From an uncultured Alphaproteobacteria bacterium (GTDB lineage: Bacteria > Pseudomonadota > Alphaproteobacteria > Bin95): a stretch of 38,705 bases of DNA. The DNA lies in contig CALKDI010000201.1 in NCBI GenBank assembly GCA_938084065.1, positions 1 through 38,705 of the forward strand. The letters run 5' to 3'. The number at the start of each line of letters is the position of its first letter. Position 1 is the first letter of the stretch. The position numbers and the translations under genes were made by a program. This document shows positions 9,126 through 21,862 of this stretch, piece after piece. The notes beneath the pieces are model-generated. The model saw only the letters and a list, made by a program, of their open reading frames with translations, did no database searches and was not told the DNA's origin.

Positions 9126-9779
9126 ATGACCGAACTGACCCCGACGCTGGTATTGCGCGCCTACGCTATGGGCGTGTTCCCTATGGCCGAATCCCATGAT
9201 GCAGAGACACTGTTCTGGGTTGATCCAGAGATGCGGGGCGTACTGCCGCTCGACACCTTTCACATCCCCCGCCGCCTGAAACGCACCGTACGGCAAGGGC
9301 TCTACACGGTTCGCTGCAACTCAGACTTTGAAGGCGTCATCGCAGGCTGCGCCGCCGCTCGCGCGCCCGACCAGGACACCTGGATCAATGACGAGGTCCG
9401 TCGACTGTTCCGCGCACTGCACGCTATGGGCGTCGTCCACACGGTTGAATGCTGGCAGGATGACCAACTGGTCGGTGGCCTTTATGGTCTGCATCTGGGT
9501 GGCGCGTTCTTCGGCGAAAGCATGTTCAGCCGGGCGCGCGATGCCAGCAAGGTCGCACTGGTACACCTGGTCGCCCGCATGACCTACGCCGGCCTTACCC
9601 TACTCGACACCCAGTTCATCACGGAGCATTTGAGCCAATTCGGCGCCGTGGAAATCCCCCGCGACGACTATCGCCGCCGCCTGGAGCGGGCCATTACTGT
9701 TCCCGCCGCCTTCCCAGCAGAACTTCCCACCGCCGCACTCAATGCGTTCCTGGACCGCCCCAGTCCCTCAACGCTTTAG
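9126..9779 (+). CDS. aat: Leucyl/phenylalanyl-tRNA--protein transferase
   Basis: A 217-aa cytosolic enzyme that transfers Leu or Phe from aminoacyl-tRNA to N-terminal Lys/Arg of proteins, marking them for ClpS/ClpAP (N-degron pathway). Recognisable family blocks are [25 protein letters not shown], the WINDEV block, [19 protein letters not shown] and [11 protein letters not shown]. The length is normal. I chose the ATG at 9126 rather than the GTG six bases earlier because tgagg (9116-9120) then has proper spacing. It lies 109 bp after rne on the same strand, so co-transcription is possible. Confidence 0.95.
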
Positions 9780-9807
9780 TTCGCGCAGGGTCCGGATCGC
9801 CCGCAGC

Positions 9808-10710
9808 CTATTCCGCCGCCACGCCCTTGCGCTGCTCGAAGGTCTCAAACCAACGGCGACCGCCGCCCTTCTGGTTCTCGTATATCGAGCCCTGGTTCTT
9901 TGCCGCCGGCAAAGGCAGGCGCACTGGCACCGGCTCCACCCTAGGTTGGCGAGTGCTCACGCCGCGGGCCATGCGGCTCTCATAGGCCGCATAATCACCC
10001 TTGAGACCGACCATCGGGAAAGCATCTGCCGCCGCATACTCGGTCAGCAGCAAACGCCGTTGCCGGTTGGAGGTGTTCAACGCCGAACCATGCACCGCCC
10101 GCACGTGATGGATGGTCATGGAGCCCGCCGGCCCGGTCAGCATCTCAGCCGGCGAAAGATCCAGCCCTTCTGCGTCCGGATCAAATGCGCCGCAGAAAAA
10201 CCCGTCAGCATGATGATCGTAGACCGGCCCTTTGTGAGAGCCCGGCAACACCATCATCGGACCGTTGCTCTCGTCGCAATCGTCCAGCAACAAGCCAGTC
10301 GCCAGCACGTCGTCATTTGTGTGCGGATAGAACGCCCAATCCTGGTGCCATTCCACCGGCGCGCCATAACCCGCGGCCTTCATGTTCATCTTCGCGCCAT
10401 AGATGCGGATATTGTCCCCCAGCAGTGGCACCAGCACGTCGGTAATGTCGGTGTCGCAGAACAGGTCCCAGAAGAATTTCGAATGATTGTGCGGCTCCTT
10501 GATCCGGCGCACGCGCGGGTTCTGGGTGGAATGACTGTCTTCCAGGTCATAGATCTCGTTATTGGCCGTCACCTCACCCGCCCGGGCAATGATCTCCTCG
10601 GTTTCCTGGCGCAGGCGCTTCAGCTTCTCCGGGCTGAGGACGCCTTCGACAACGACATAGCCTTTTTCGTGATACTGCTCGATCTGGGTTTTGGTGAGTT
10701 GGACAGGCAT
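9808..10710 (-). CDS. Phytanoyl-CoA dioxygenase (PhyH) family protein
   Basis: A 300-aa Fe(II)/2-oxoglutarate-dependent oxygenase, expected to hydroxylate a small molecule or acyl substrate while converting 2-oxoglutarate and O2 to succinate and CO2. The double-stranded beta-helix motifs are present: H122 and D124 in EWHQDW, distal His H207 in AVHGSALNTSN, and Arg at 218-219 in the position that binds 2-oxoglutarate. The block LPGSHKGPV is typical of PhyH proteins. A GAGAG-like site precedes the ATG. The real substrate is unknown, because PhyH proteins in marine alphaproteobacteria are numerous and mostly uncharacterised. It is convergent with aat and divergent from a DMT transporter (122-bp gap), with which it may share a regulatory region. 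Confidence 0.88.
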   Translation of the reverse strand: MPVQLTKTQIEQYHEKGYVVVEGVLSPEKLKRLRQETEEIIARAGEVTANNEIYDLEDSHSTQNPRVRRIKEPHNHSKFFWDLFCDTDITDVLVPLLGDNIRIYGAKMNMKAAGYGAPVEWHQDWAFYPHTNDDVLATGLLLDDCDESNGPMMVLPGSHKGPVYDHHADGFFCGAFDPDAEGLDLSPAEMLTGPAGSMTIHHVRAVHGSALNTSNRQRRLLLTEYAAADAFPMVGLKGDYAAYESRMARGVSTRQPRVEPVPVRLPLPAAKNQGSIYENQKGGGRRWFETFEQRKGVAAE

Positions 10711-10832
10711 GGCAGGCTCTCGCTTTGCAGTGTTGCTCTGGGCAGTGATCTATAGGCGGATTGTGCGCCTTTACGGCCCGCCAAACAAGCGTCAGAACAA
10801 CCACTACGTTGCTCGCGGAGACACAGGCGCCC

Positions 10833-17595: not shown

Positions 17596-17774
17596 CAGCA
17601 TCATCCTTATCTACAGTTCAGTCCAAAGATACGATGCAAGCGCGGCCATAATCCGGCAACCAAAACACAGTCGTTTTCCGCTTGGATTCGATCATAAAGT
17701 TGTGACACACTCTGTTGCAAATTAAGCGCATGTCATCACCAAGTCGCGCTTGAGCAACAACGGAGAATACGCCG

Positions 17775-19382
17775 ATGTGCCCCGACAGCCTTTTACCCGC
17801 GATGGATACAGATACCGCCCGTCTTTATGCCACCTTGGAAGATCGGGTAATGGCCCGCGACCAGAAGGGCGCGTCCGACACCTATTACGACCTCGTCCGC
17901 GCCGGTCGTCCGCTGTCTGAGTTGTTAAGTGAGGCTGTCCGCATCCACGGCCCATACACCCATGTGCCCTATCATGAGCGTATCGACGACGGCTTCGTTA
18001 ATTTCGTCAACAACGACCATTGCCTGCTATCGGCCCGCGCCACGATCCATCTCTCGCAATGGCTGCCGCCAGAGGCCCAGGCTTTACCGATGGCGCAGAC
18101 CATCTGGTACATGCCAACCGGCCTGGACATCTGGAACCAGAAAATCCTGAAGGCCCCCGGTCACTACGCTCGTGGCGGCGGCGAACTCCCCGCCGGCCCT
18201 CCACCGGCACCGGTGCGTCACTGGCCGGATCAGGAGCCGAAAGCCCTCTCGGGCCCGCTGGAAGATCGCCTGAATGAATGGGCAACTCAGGTGCATCGCG
18301 GCAATGTGCTGGAGGCGTACTCCATCTTCCTCGGCGTCATGCAAAACCCCGCAGACCGCCAACAGGCCCTGGCCCAATTGGTGTTCGCCGGCCTCTCCGA
18401 CGTTCAGGATCGGGTGCTCTACAACCGCTCCTACACCACCGGACATAAGGCGTTCCGCGCCCGCGCTACGGTGGAGTTAGGCAATCTGATCGGCTGGGAC
18501 CAGGCCCACGACGTGCTGTATGCCGGCGCGCTCGACATCGGCGTCGGTCCGCGCTGGTATTCGACCTATGAGATGGCCTGCAACCTGATCACCGTATTCA
18601 TCGATGGCGACCGCATTTCCGCAATCCCCTATTCCGGCACCAGCGAGCGCGAACGTGAGGTTCTGACTCAGTCCGCACCCCTCACCCAGGCCGAGGGTGA
18701 AGCGCTGATCCACGTCCTCCTGCGTGAGCCAGAGCCGGCCTATATCGAACACCTCGCCAACCTCTTGAAGGCCGGCAAGGGTCCGCGGCAAATCCTGGAT
18801 GTGATCCAACTGGCCGCCGCTCAGGTGTTGCTGGAGACCCGCGACCCAAACGGCTTCTCCATCCCGCAGCACTGCTATGAGTACATGAACACGCTGGGGT
18901 GGTTTTACGACAACTTCCAGCATCCTCAGCGCCTGAAGCTATTGTTCGTCGCCGCCAGCTATCTGAACCGCAACGCCACCCACCAACGGGCATTGGGCGA
19001 TGTCGAGCCGGCACCGGCAAAAGCACCCTCAGCCGCCGCTGGCCTCAGCCCCAACGCAATCCTCGACCATGCAGAGGAAGCCCTGGTGACAATCGAACCA
19101 GAGGCAGCCCTCGCCTGGACCAGAGCCTATCTGGACACAAAAGAAGACCGCGCGCCGCTGGTGCAACGCATCGCCCTCGCCGCCTGCCGCATCGGCAACG
19201 ATCCGCACAACCAAGAGCTCGCGCAATGCCTATTGGAGGATTACGGCAAAAACAAATCCTGGGACCGCGACCGCCTGATTATGGCCGCGGCACAACACAC
19301 CGTGCAGCACCGCAAGTACGGCGACCACCTGGAATGCAGCCACCGCTTCGGTCAGGCTATGGCCGTAGAGCGGCTACAATAG
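17775..19382 (+). CDS. Conserved-looking protein of unknown function, His-rich, mostly helical
   Basis: A 535-aa soluble protein with no signal peptide or membrane helix that I can see. The start at 17775 is supported by ggaga nine bases upstream. I do not recognise the family. Notable features are a His cluster in HGPYTHVPYHE (58-68) followed by NNDHCLL (79-85); TGHKAFRARA (222-231) followed by WDQAHDVLYAG (241-251); IPQHCYEYMNTLGWFYDNF (363-381); and several His near the C-terminus (508-523). The composition suggests packed alpha helices. A Pro/Ala linker at about 411-424 separates a C-terminal helical segment. Regularly spaced His, Asp and Tyr suggest a metal- or cofactor-binding oxidoreductase, but that is a guess. 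It is divergent from the small lipoprotein and convergent with an SDR. Confidence 0.8.
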   Translation: MCPDSLLPAMDTDTARLYATLEDRVMARDQKGASDTYYDLVRAGRPLSELLSEAVRIHGPYTHVPYHERIDDGFVNFVNNDHCLLSARATIHLSQWLPPEAQALPMAQTIWYMPTGLDIWNQKILKAPGHYARGGGELPAGPPPAPVRHWPDQEPKALSGPLEDRLNEWATQVHRGNVLEAYSIFLGVMQNPADRQQALAQLVFAGLSDVQDRVLYNRSYTTGHKAFRARATVELGNLIGWDQAHDVLYAGALDIGVGPRWYSTYEMACNLITVFIDGDRISAIPYSGTSEREREVLTQSAPLTQAEGEALIHVLLREPEPAYIEHLANLLKAGKGPRQILDVIQLAAAQVLLETRDPNGFSIPQHCYEYMNTLGWFYDNFQHPQRLKLLFVAASYLNRNATHQRALGDVEPAPAKAPSAAAGLSPNAILDHAEEALVTIEPEAALAWTRAYLDTKEDRAPLVQRIALAACRIGNDPHNQELAQCLLEDYGKNKSWDRDRLIMAAAQHTVQHRKYGDHLECSHRFGQAMAVERLQ

Positions 19383-19419: not shown

Positions 19420-20157
19420 TTACGTCATCCCGCCAGCAATGCGCAGGTTAGCACCGCTGGTATAGCTGGCCTCGTCCGACAGCAGATAGGCGACGCCGTG
19501 CGCGATCTCGTCGGCTTCACCAGCGCGGCCCATGGGCAGGCCAGGCACCCGCTTGGCCAGCTCGTCCGGCCCCGGCATATCAGTCGCAATCAGGCCAGGT
19601 GCGACCGTGTTGACGCGGATGCTATCGGCCACCAGCTCCTGGCTGAGACCGATAGTCATGGAGTTCACCGCCCCCTTGGTCATCGCATACAGCACTGAAT
19701 TGTTGGGTGAGCCACGATGGGCTGACCCGCTGGAGATGTTGCAAATCACGCCGCCCTGCCCGCCATGTTTGGTGCTCATCCGCTTGATGGCCTCAATGGT
19801 CGGGTACATATAGCCCTTAATGTTGACCGCAATCATACCGTCGATGGTGTCTTGGGTCAGATCCTCAAACCGGCCACGCTGGCTGATCACACCGGCATTG
19901 TTCACCAAATGGGTGAGCCGACCCAGCCCCTGATCCACCGCCTCAAACATCGCCCGCACCGCCGCCAGATCGCCGATATCCGCCTGCACGGCAACGGCCC
20001 GTCGTCCGGCAGCCTCCACATCCATCACGACCTGTGCTGCCGCCTTGGCATTGCCGGCATAGTTGACGGCGACATCATATCCTTTTTCCGCCAACACGCG
20101 CGCGCAGGCTGCGCCGATACCGCGGCTGCCGCCAGTGATGAGAACGATTTTTGACAT
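19420..20157 (-). CDS. Short-chain dehydrogenase/reductase (SDR), FabG-like
   Basis: A 245-aa classical SDR that oxidises or reduces a hydroxyl/keto group with NAD(P). Visible motifs are TGGSRGIG (8-15, nucleotide binding), NNAG (86-89), Ser in NISSGSA (140-146), and Y157 and K161 in YAMTK. The C-terminus ends in SGANLRIAGGMT, as in FabG-type enzymes. I chose the ATG at 20157 because the family begins directly with the first beta strand; an in-frame ATG 18 bp upstream would add six residues. Neither start has a strong ribosome site. There is no fatty-acid-synthesis context, so this is more likely a catabolic or secondary SDR than the housekeeping fabG. It is divergent from the flavin reductase gene. 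Confidence 0.92.
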   Translation of the reverse strand: MSKIVLITGGSRGIGAACARVLAEKGYDVAVNYAGNAKAAAQVVMDVEAAGRRAVAVQADIGDLAAVRAMFEAVDQGLGRLTHLVNNAGVISQRGRFEDLTQDTIDGMIAVNIKGYMYPTIEAIKRMSTKHGGQGGVICNISSGSAHRGSPNNSVLYAMTKGAVNSMTIGLSQELVADSIRVNTVAPGLIATDMPGPDELAKRVPGLPMGRAGEADEIAHGVAYLLSDEASYTSGANLRIAGGMT

Positions 20158-20241
20158 AGCAAAAGGCACTTTCATTGCGAACCGAGCGGAAACGCTCTAA
20201 TCCTAACACCCAACAATCCAACGCCGCCGGAGGCAAGCCCC

Positions 20242-20913
20242 ATGTCGCACTATTTTATCGAAGACCCACGTGAACACGGCCTGAAATTCAACCCGTTCAA
20301 GGCCCTGATCGCCCCCCGCCCCATCGCTTGGGTCTCGACCGTCAGCGCGCAGGGTGTCTGTAACCTGGCACCATACAGCTTTTTCAACGCCGTCAGCGAC
20401 GCGCCGCCGATGATCGTGTTCGCACCCAACAACCCGCGCCCTGGCGGCAATGCCAAGGACACGCTCGCCAATCTGGAGCAGACCGGCGAATTCGTCGTCA
20501 ACCTCTGCAATTACGACCTGCGCGAAGCCATGAACGAAAGCTCCGCCCATGTCGATCCAGAAGTGGACGAGTTTGAGCTGGCCGGCCTCACCAAGGCCGA
20601 CTGCCATCACATCAAGGTGCCACGCGTCGCCGAAGCCCCGGCGTCGCTGGAATGCAAATTCCTGTTCCGCACCCGCCTGCCCTCCTGGCATGCCAAGGTT
20701 GAGAACAACGTCGTGTTCGGCGAAGTCGTCGGCATCCACATCGCCGAGAACATCCTGAACGATGGCCTAGTCGACATGGCAGCCTACCAACCGCTCGCCC
20801 GCCTCGGCTACATGGATTACTCCGTCGTACGCGAAGTCTTCGCCATGGACCGCCCAGACGGCGACCTCGCCTCCTACGAAAGCTCAAAAAAGGGCCGCCG
20901 CGCCGCTGAGTAG
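20242..20913 (+). CDS. Flavin reductase family / FMN-binding split-barrel protein
   Basis: A 223-aa protein of the flavin-reductase-like FMN-binding family. These either supply reduced flavin to a monooxygenase or act as flavoproteins themselves. The family signature is the early block LIAPRPIAWVSTVSAQGVCN (about 22-41), followed by LAPYSFFNAVSDAPPMIVFA and a GEFVVNL block. A strong ggagg site precedes the ATG. No monooxygenase partner lies next to it; the divergent SDR and the downstream enoyl-CoA hydratase are the only neighbours. A strong intrinsic terminator follows, so it is probably transcribed alone. Confidence 0.9.
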   Translation: MSHYFIEDPREHGLKFNPFKALIAPRPIAWVSTVSAQGVCNLAPYSFFNAVSDAPPMIVFAPNNPRPGGNAKDTLANLEQTGEFVVNLCNYDLREAMNESSAHVDPEVDEFELAGLTKADCHHIKVPRVAEAPASLECKFLFRTRLPSWHAKVENNVVFGEVVGIHIAENILNDGLVDMAAYQPLARLGYMDYSVVREVFAMDRPDGDLASYESSKKGRRAAE

Positions 20914-20969: not shown

Positions 20970-21073
20970 GCGGCTCAGTGCAGAAACTAACCGTTGTAAC
21001 GATTGCCGCGGCGGCGAAACCGCGGCACCATAGGTGCATAAATTCTCAAATACCCTATCAGAGGAAACGCCCA

Positions 21074-21862
21074 ATGGCTGGCTACGAATATCTAAAGGTC
21101 GAGCGCGAAGGTCCGCTCACCATCGTCACGATCAACCGTCCGGAGGTCTACAACGCCCTTCACCCGCCGGCGCATTGGGAGTTCGACAAAGTCTTCACGG
21201 AATTCCGTGATGATCCGGAGCAATGGATTGCCATCGTCACAGGCGCGGGCGACAAGGCGTTCTCTGCTGGCAATGACCTGAAATACCAGGCGGCAGGCGT
21301 CGGCTCGCGGAGCCGGCCGGATTCGGGCTTTGCTGGCATTACCAACCGCTATGACCAGACCAAACCTGTCATCGCGGCGGTGAATGGCTGGGCCATGGGC
21401 GGCGGTTTTGAGACGGCTCTGGCCTGCGATCTGATCATCGCGGCGGAGAACGCTACCTTCGCTCTGCCAGAGCCACGGGTCGGCCTCGCTGCTGGTGCTG
21501 GCGGCATCCACCGTCTGCCACGGCACATCCCGTTCAAGCAGGCCATGGGCATGATCCTGACCGGCCGCCGTGTCAGCGCTGCTGAGGGCAAAGAACTGGG
21601 CTTCGTCAATGAGGTCGTACCGACCGGCGAGGCTTTGGCCGGCGCCAAACGCTGGGCTGCCACCATTCTGGAATGCTCACCCATGTCGATCCGCGCCTCC
21701 AAGCAGGGCGTCTATATGGGCCTGGACGAGACGTCGGTCGGCAACGCCATTCGCAATCAGCATATCTACCCGGCCTACAAGGCGATGGGCGAGTCGGAGG
21801 ACTATATCGAAGGCCCGAAAGCCTTCTCCGAGAAACGCCCGCCGAACTGGAAGGGTCGCTAA
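21074..21862 (+). CDS. Enoyl-CoA hydratase/isomerase family protein
   Basis: A 262-aa crotonase-fold enzyme. The oxyanion-hole blocks are FSAGNDLK (63-70) and AAVNGWAMGGGFE (101-113). Both glutamates used by true enoyl-CoA hydratases are present, E113 in GGGFE and E133 in LPEPRVGL, exactly 20 residues apart as in the rat enzyme. It is therefore likely to hydrate an enoyl-CoA rather than only isomerise. The start ATG at 21074 has gaggaa seven bases upstream. It is separated from the flavin reductase by a terminator, so it needs its own promoter in 20970-21060. The substrate could be an ordinary or an unusual enoyl-CoA such as crotonobetainyl-CoA. Confidence 0.93.
   Translation: MAGYEYLKVEREGPLTIVTINRPEVYNALHPPAHWEFDKVFTEFRDDPEQWIAIVTGAGDKAFSAGNDLKYQAAGVGSRSRPDSGFAGITNRYDQTKPVIAAVNGWAMGGGFETALACDLIIAAENATFALPEPRVGLAAGAGGIHRLPRHIPFKQAMGMILTGRRVSAAEGKELGFVNEVVPTGEALAGAKRWAATILECSPMSIRASKQGVYMGLDETSVGNAIRNQHIYPAYKAMGESEDYIEGPKAFSEKRPPNWKGR

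Follow-up and report, generated by a model that had tools for sequence, protein, structure and literature searches.

The open reading frame at positions 17775–19382 (+) of the window, by which we mean the whole 38,705-nucleotide stretch of alphaproteobacterial DNA analysed here, is a real, intact and strongly conserved gene, and its 535-residue product (P0001) is probably a bacterial oxygenase of the BTG13 fold that would use mononuclear non-heme iron and O2, at a putative His4-Glu site, to cleave carbon-carbon bonds in aromatic or quinone-type compounds. The protein has no recognisable family by sequence, yet its predicted structure places it with the questin oxidases at the level of the fold, an assignment drawing on the reading frame, its relatives, an AlphaFold model and a structural match. 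We infer the iron, the oxygen chemistry, the ring cleavage and the substrate class.

The frame runs from ATG to TAG, and a GGAG resembling a ribosome-binding site can be read 9 nt upstream of the ATG (17762–17765, +). In the alignment several relatives share this starting residue (MPPDS and MSPDS versus MCPDS in the window protein), in agreement with a sequence-only reading of this DNA that had described a long protein with a well-supported start. All motifs quoted in that reading occur in the protein. Its description as His-rich holds in a mild sense, with histidine making up 21 of 535 residues (3.9%), and the repeats it had perceived did not materialise, as self-BLAST returned the identity match only and three part-versus-part profile comparisons gave probabilities below 1%.

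Searches of Pfam, NCBIfam and PDB sequences (phmmer and profile, E ≤ 10) and of PHROGs (E ≤ 1) returned no match to the protein. The result extends to the Questin_oxidase family PF14027, for which P0001 had no match at E ≤ 10 and for which four relatives, three distant and one closer, likewise had none, while a bacterial PF14027 protein used as positive control (P0002) matched at 9.3e-31. Comparison of the family profiles with PF14027 by hhalign gave probabilities of 0.2% and 0.1%, which amounts to no sequence-level relation; the second of these alignments (0.1%, non-significant) puts H478 on the PF14027 histidine H312. When the four His motifs of PF14027 were scanned as blocks, the proposed histidines did not stand out as distinct best sites, and H478 ranked no higher than second for its own block. 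The metal-site mapping described below is thus not established by sequence tests alone, and we attribute the failure of every family search to recognise the protein to how far its sequence has drifted.

A scan of species genomes recovered 121 confirmed relatives, the best 80 of which were kept, and 50 of these together with the window protein form an alignment of 51 rows with 58–68% identity to the window protein. Ten histidines are invariant across these main-family rows (H58, H63, H67, H82, H130, H224, H366, H383, H478 and H512). Fusion reading frames in L078, L017 and L037 are apparent only and were attributed to open upstream frames. L105 (E 0.03), considered as a distant relative, was rejected because it is of the repeat type and lacks the motifs, and other matches of the distant search with E 0.24–0.72 were left out of the relatives.

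AlphaFold, given the 51-row alignment, predicted a nearly all-helical structure with pLDDT 89.6 and pTM 0.91. Foldseek found no significant match to this model in the PDB, listing 8z4q at rank 2 with E 0.31 and 8yxs at rank 25, and nothing among viral models at E ≤ 0.001. Realignment with VIA-align, covering 994 chains, placed questin-oxidase-family entries in all top five positions, namely 7y3w (Z 16.7), 7y3x (16.3), 8yxs (16.1), 8z4q (14.5) and 8z4r (14.2). Judging from their PDB titles these are fungal dioxygenases, described as questin oxidase (BTG13), non-heme iron dioxygenase (AflY-like) and hydroquinone dioxygenase (PaD). These alignments include 333–342 residues at rmsd 4.1–4.5 within a model span of 44–521, with 7y3w at 4.1 over 333. 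Questin oxidases had been considered as candidate kin ahead of the fold search. The predicted model thus has the overall fold of the questin-oxidase/BTG13 structural group, and the claim that the protein belongs to no recognisable family stands for sequence and falls for fold.

It could be argued that the match reflects nothing beyond a common arrangement of helices, the protein being an unrelated helical repeat of the TPR, HEAT or AAA-collar kind in which the histidines serve some other purpose. The absent sequence relation to PF14027, the Foldseek E value and the high scores that helical models attain by chance all speak for this alternative. A refolded fragment of residues 79–484 (pLDDT 86.1) reached Z 11.1–12.4, only 2–3.5 above unrelated helical collars (8.9). 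We nevertheless regard a helical-repeat protein as improbable, for although helical models can reach Z of about 14 by arrangement alone, the questin oxidases hold every one of the top five places at Z 14–17 over about 335 residues, against 8.3 over 107 residues for the next row. Two further observations run against it, the coincidence of the fragment's C-terminal anchor with the metal motif in three known proteins and the retention in distant relatives of those histidines that had been stated beforehand.

In BTG13 the residues of interest, taken from PDB sequences with the numbering checked by the H58F entry 7y3x, are H55 (and H58), H158, H296, H374 and K377; the iron ligands we take to be four histidines and a carboxylated Lys377. 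Ends 1 and 406 of the fragment fall on residues 52 and 380 of 7y3w and on 60 and 392 of 8yxs, and its C-terminal end on residue 400 of both 8z4q and 8z4r. Counting from these ends without gaps, and assuming that the numbering of 8yxs and 8z4q equals the sequence index, places H82 on H55/H63, H478 on H374/H386/H394 and E481 on K377/K389/K397. The N-terminal anchor for PaD disagrees (42 and 50), and the C-terminal anchor, carried by the last six fragment residues with pLDDT below 50, coincides with the metal motif in BTG13, the AflY-like protein and PaD alike. H82 (codon 18018–18020, +) and H478 (19206–19208, +) are accordingly the fragment-anchored candidates for iron ligands, as counterparts of BTG13 H55 and H374. 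For H224 (18444–18446, +) and H366 (18870–18872, +) we infer correspondence to BTG13 H158 and H296 by order and motif, the local sequences being TTGHKAFRAR versus EGAYHPLIQL for H224 and PQHCYEY versus FMHMVTS for H366. From the structural alignment, the histidines would meet in one pocket.

The four candidates H82, H224, H366 and H478 had been recorded before any distant relatives appeared. Those relatives are 27–31% identical and consist of three diverged proteins (L103, L104 and L115) and a member of another subfamily (L118). In 13 rows picked for diversity, nine from the main family and these four full-length distant ones, with the distant partial matches L116 and L117 left out, H67, H82, H224, H366 and H478 are invariant, whereas H58, H63, H130, H383 and H512 vary. 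The probability that all four candidates fall among the five retained of ten histidines is 0.024, a figure with few independent events behind it because the three L103-type rows resemble each other closely. The fifth, H67 (17973–17975, +), may belong to the second sphere or be catalytic. K514 (19314–19316), near the C-terminus, is also invariant in 13 of 13 rows.

Relative to the histidines named in the sequence-only reading, H67, H82 and H224 are upheld by this conservation, H58, H63 and H245 vary, and the candidate ligands H366 and H478 were missing from its list. Its broader suggestion of a helical enzyme with a His-based metal or cofactor site gains support from the nearly all-helical model, the likeness to non-heme iron dioxygenases and the four invariant histidines of the predicted site. 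The profile search and structure prediction that it had proposed gave different answers, the former finding no match in Pfam or PDB sequences and the latter a model that matches the questin-oxidase fold.

Compared with BTG13 from Cercospora (PDB 7y3w, 7y3x, 7y3y), the predicted model shares the helical fold and a late Hxx(K/E) motif, and its four candidate histidines would follow the BTG13 order (two anchored by the fragment and two placed by order and motif). Identity is 9%, there is no sequence-profile relation, the window protein is about 100 residues longer, and the substrate of BTG13 is a fungal anthraquinone. The BTG13 paper (ACS Catal.) is cited in PMC12186474 and PMC13257696. PaD (8z4q, 8z4r) and the AflY-like oxygenase (8yxs) share the fold at Z 14.2–16.1 and 8–11% identity, and the C-terminal anchor falls on their HxxK, the Lys of which is Glu in the window protein. 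Bacterial PF14027 proteins, from Rhizobium plasmids and elsewhere, have four invariant histidines in the same order as the candidates of the window protein; they are shorter (about 350 residues) and have no profile match to the window family. Across ten of them H30, H122, H235 and H312 of P0002 are invariant and profile-align to BTG13 H55, H158, H296 and H374, a fifth invariant column (H249) lies outside the four motifs, and H241 is nearly invariant. At the position equivalent to K377, three residues past the last of the four histidines, these ten proteins (L089–L096, L086 and L084) carry Ser in eight cases and Lys in two, so that even PF14027 proteins do not carry the carboxylated lysine as a rule.

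E481 (19215–19217, +) occupies the place of BTG13 K377 by the fragment anchor. The carboxylated lysine of the BTG13 group is replaced by Glu in P0001 and in all 51 main-family rows, and the 13 divergent rows have Glu in nine, Arg in three and Lys in one. Lys occurs only in L118, in the motif DDPHNQK, which is of the same type as that of BTG13, and Arg in three rows is odd for a metal ligand. The gene of this third subfamily (L118:1483–3036) adjoins, by eye, glycosyl hydrolase-like and Gfo/Idh-type oxidoreductase-like genes, and the same genome also has a main-family copy (L112). A possible, and at present tentative, interpretation is that these proteins form a hidden superfamily of bacterial enzymes that activate O2, in which a single fold has had its carboxylated-Lys ligand exchanged in evolution for Glu, Arg or Lys and the chemistry differs from anthraquinone cleavage. 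The same substitutions, Glu throughout the main family and Arg or Lys in the distant rows, might instead mark a switch to non-oxidative chemistry, in which the questin-oxidase scaffold and its His metal site would serve a hydrolase, lyase or decarboxylase using Zn, Mn or another metal. We consider such a switch unlikely; four histidines plus one acid form a plausible site for oxygen-activating iron, and the neighbouring genes bear on the question as well.

In the window, the gene is followed by a convergent short-chain dehydrogenase (19420–20175, −; Pfam adh_short_C2, 7.8e-49) across a 37-nt intergenic gap and then by a flavin reductase-like gene (20242–20913, +; PF01613, 2.6e-22), and further neighbours code for enoyl-CoA hydratase, CoA-transferase, dehydrogenase and amidase. 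The enoyl-CoA hydratase frame (20978–21862) is listed from a GTG although its Pfam match begins only at residue 47; the ATG at 21074, which is in frame and follows AGAGGAAA, looks a better start. At 9742–10755 a 337-residue ATG frame without a Pfam match is overlapped by a 300-residue frame on the opposite strand, and either or neither may be a gene.

Across the best 80 of the 121 relatives, the immediate downstream gene lies on the same strand at 58 loci, and the families encoded there include TauD (14), glyoxalase (10), short-chain dehydrogenase (SDR; 6), GNAT (6) and P450 (4). Enoyl-CoA hydratase (11) and NHL-repeat proteins (10) are found immediately upstream among 75 scanned loci. With genes called heuristically, TauD starts 16–23 nt past the gene at eight loci and within 500 nt at 13. 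By the same gene calls, within 5.5 kb downstream 27 of 81 loci have a quinone-oxidoreductase-like MDR gene, so named by eye, and 20 have a P450. No single neighbour is constant across loci, and the neighbourhoods fit the breakdown of some organic compound, which may be aromatic, without indicating a single substrate. The diversity of neighbours, which include hydrolases, racemases and CoA enzymes, suits non-oxidative chemistry, whereas the recurrence of TauD, P450 and SDR genes directly downstream counts against it. The adjacent flavin reductase-like gene, together with the many invariant aromatic residues, could also be taken to mean that the invariant histidines and aromatic residues bind not a metal ion on its own but a larger cofactor such as heme, flavin or bilin. 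This we judge highly improbable, given that no heme- or flavin-binding fold heads the structural list and that flavin reductase is absent from the 25 commonest immediate-neighbour families at the 80 downstream and 75 upstream loci.

Relatives come mostly from records titled Alphaproteobacteria or its genera, including Reyranella, Rhodopila, Bradyrhizobium and Acetobacteraceae; some are MAGs titled only Proteobacteria, and single ones are titled Binatota, Gammaproteobacteria, Immundisolibacterales and Nitrosovibrio. The window genome has one copy. An evenly drawn sample of the phylum contained the family in 2 of 398 genomes, one being the window's own, and a sample of the class in 6 of 385. Among 40 relatives two carry the gene, the window's own genome included, and none of the 13 other genomes of the same taxonomic family does. 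The gene is present in 35 of 75 genomes of the taxonomic family of G139, taken as Reyranellaceae, and in 6 of 15 of the order of G800; the class of G170 has it in 0 of 321 genomes. The plasmid search gave no match, and 10 pattern matches in viral contigs included no relatives. Such uneven presence across the sampled genomes indicates an accessory, patchy gene.

Under the favoured reading as an oxygenase of the BTG13 fold, H82, H224, H366 and H478 would hold one Fe(II), and E481, three residues past H478, would replace the carboxylated lysine of BTG13 as a direct ligand or in the second sphere, yielding the His4-Glu site. Oxygen would be activated at the iron, with neither flavin nor 2-oxoglutarate taking part, and its insertion into a substrate of the electron-rich aromatic, quinone or hydroquinone type would cleave a C-C bond. 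The preceding and following steps may fall to the dehydrogenases, P450s, TauD-type oxygenases and CoA enzymes encoded nearby.

This proposal provides a first testable function for a family that occurs in 121 or more genome stretches and is unnamed by any sequence library searched. If right, it would extend an atypical non-heme iron fold of fungal secondary metabolism to a separate bacterial lineage, and would supply one ligand position in Glu, Lys and Arg forms, so that whether oxygen activation requires a carboxylated lysine could be tested directly. The tentative superfamily interpretation, if true, would mean that first-sphere variants of a metal site that is itself very rare exist in nature as a series. 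For soil Alphaproteobacteria, the family may add a new ring-cleaving catalyst.
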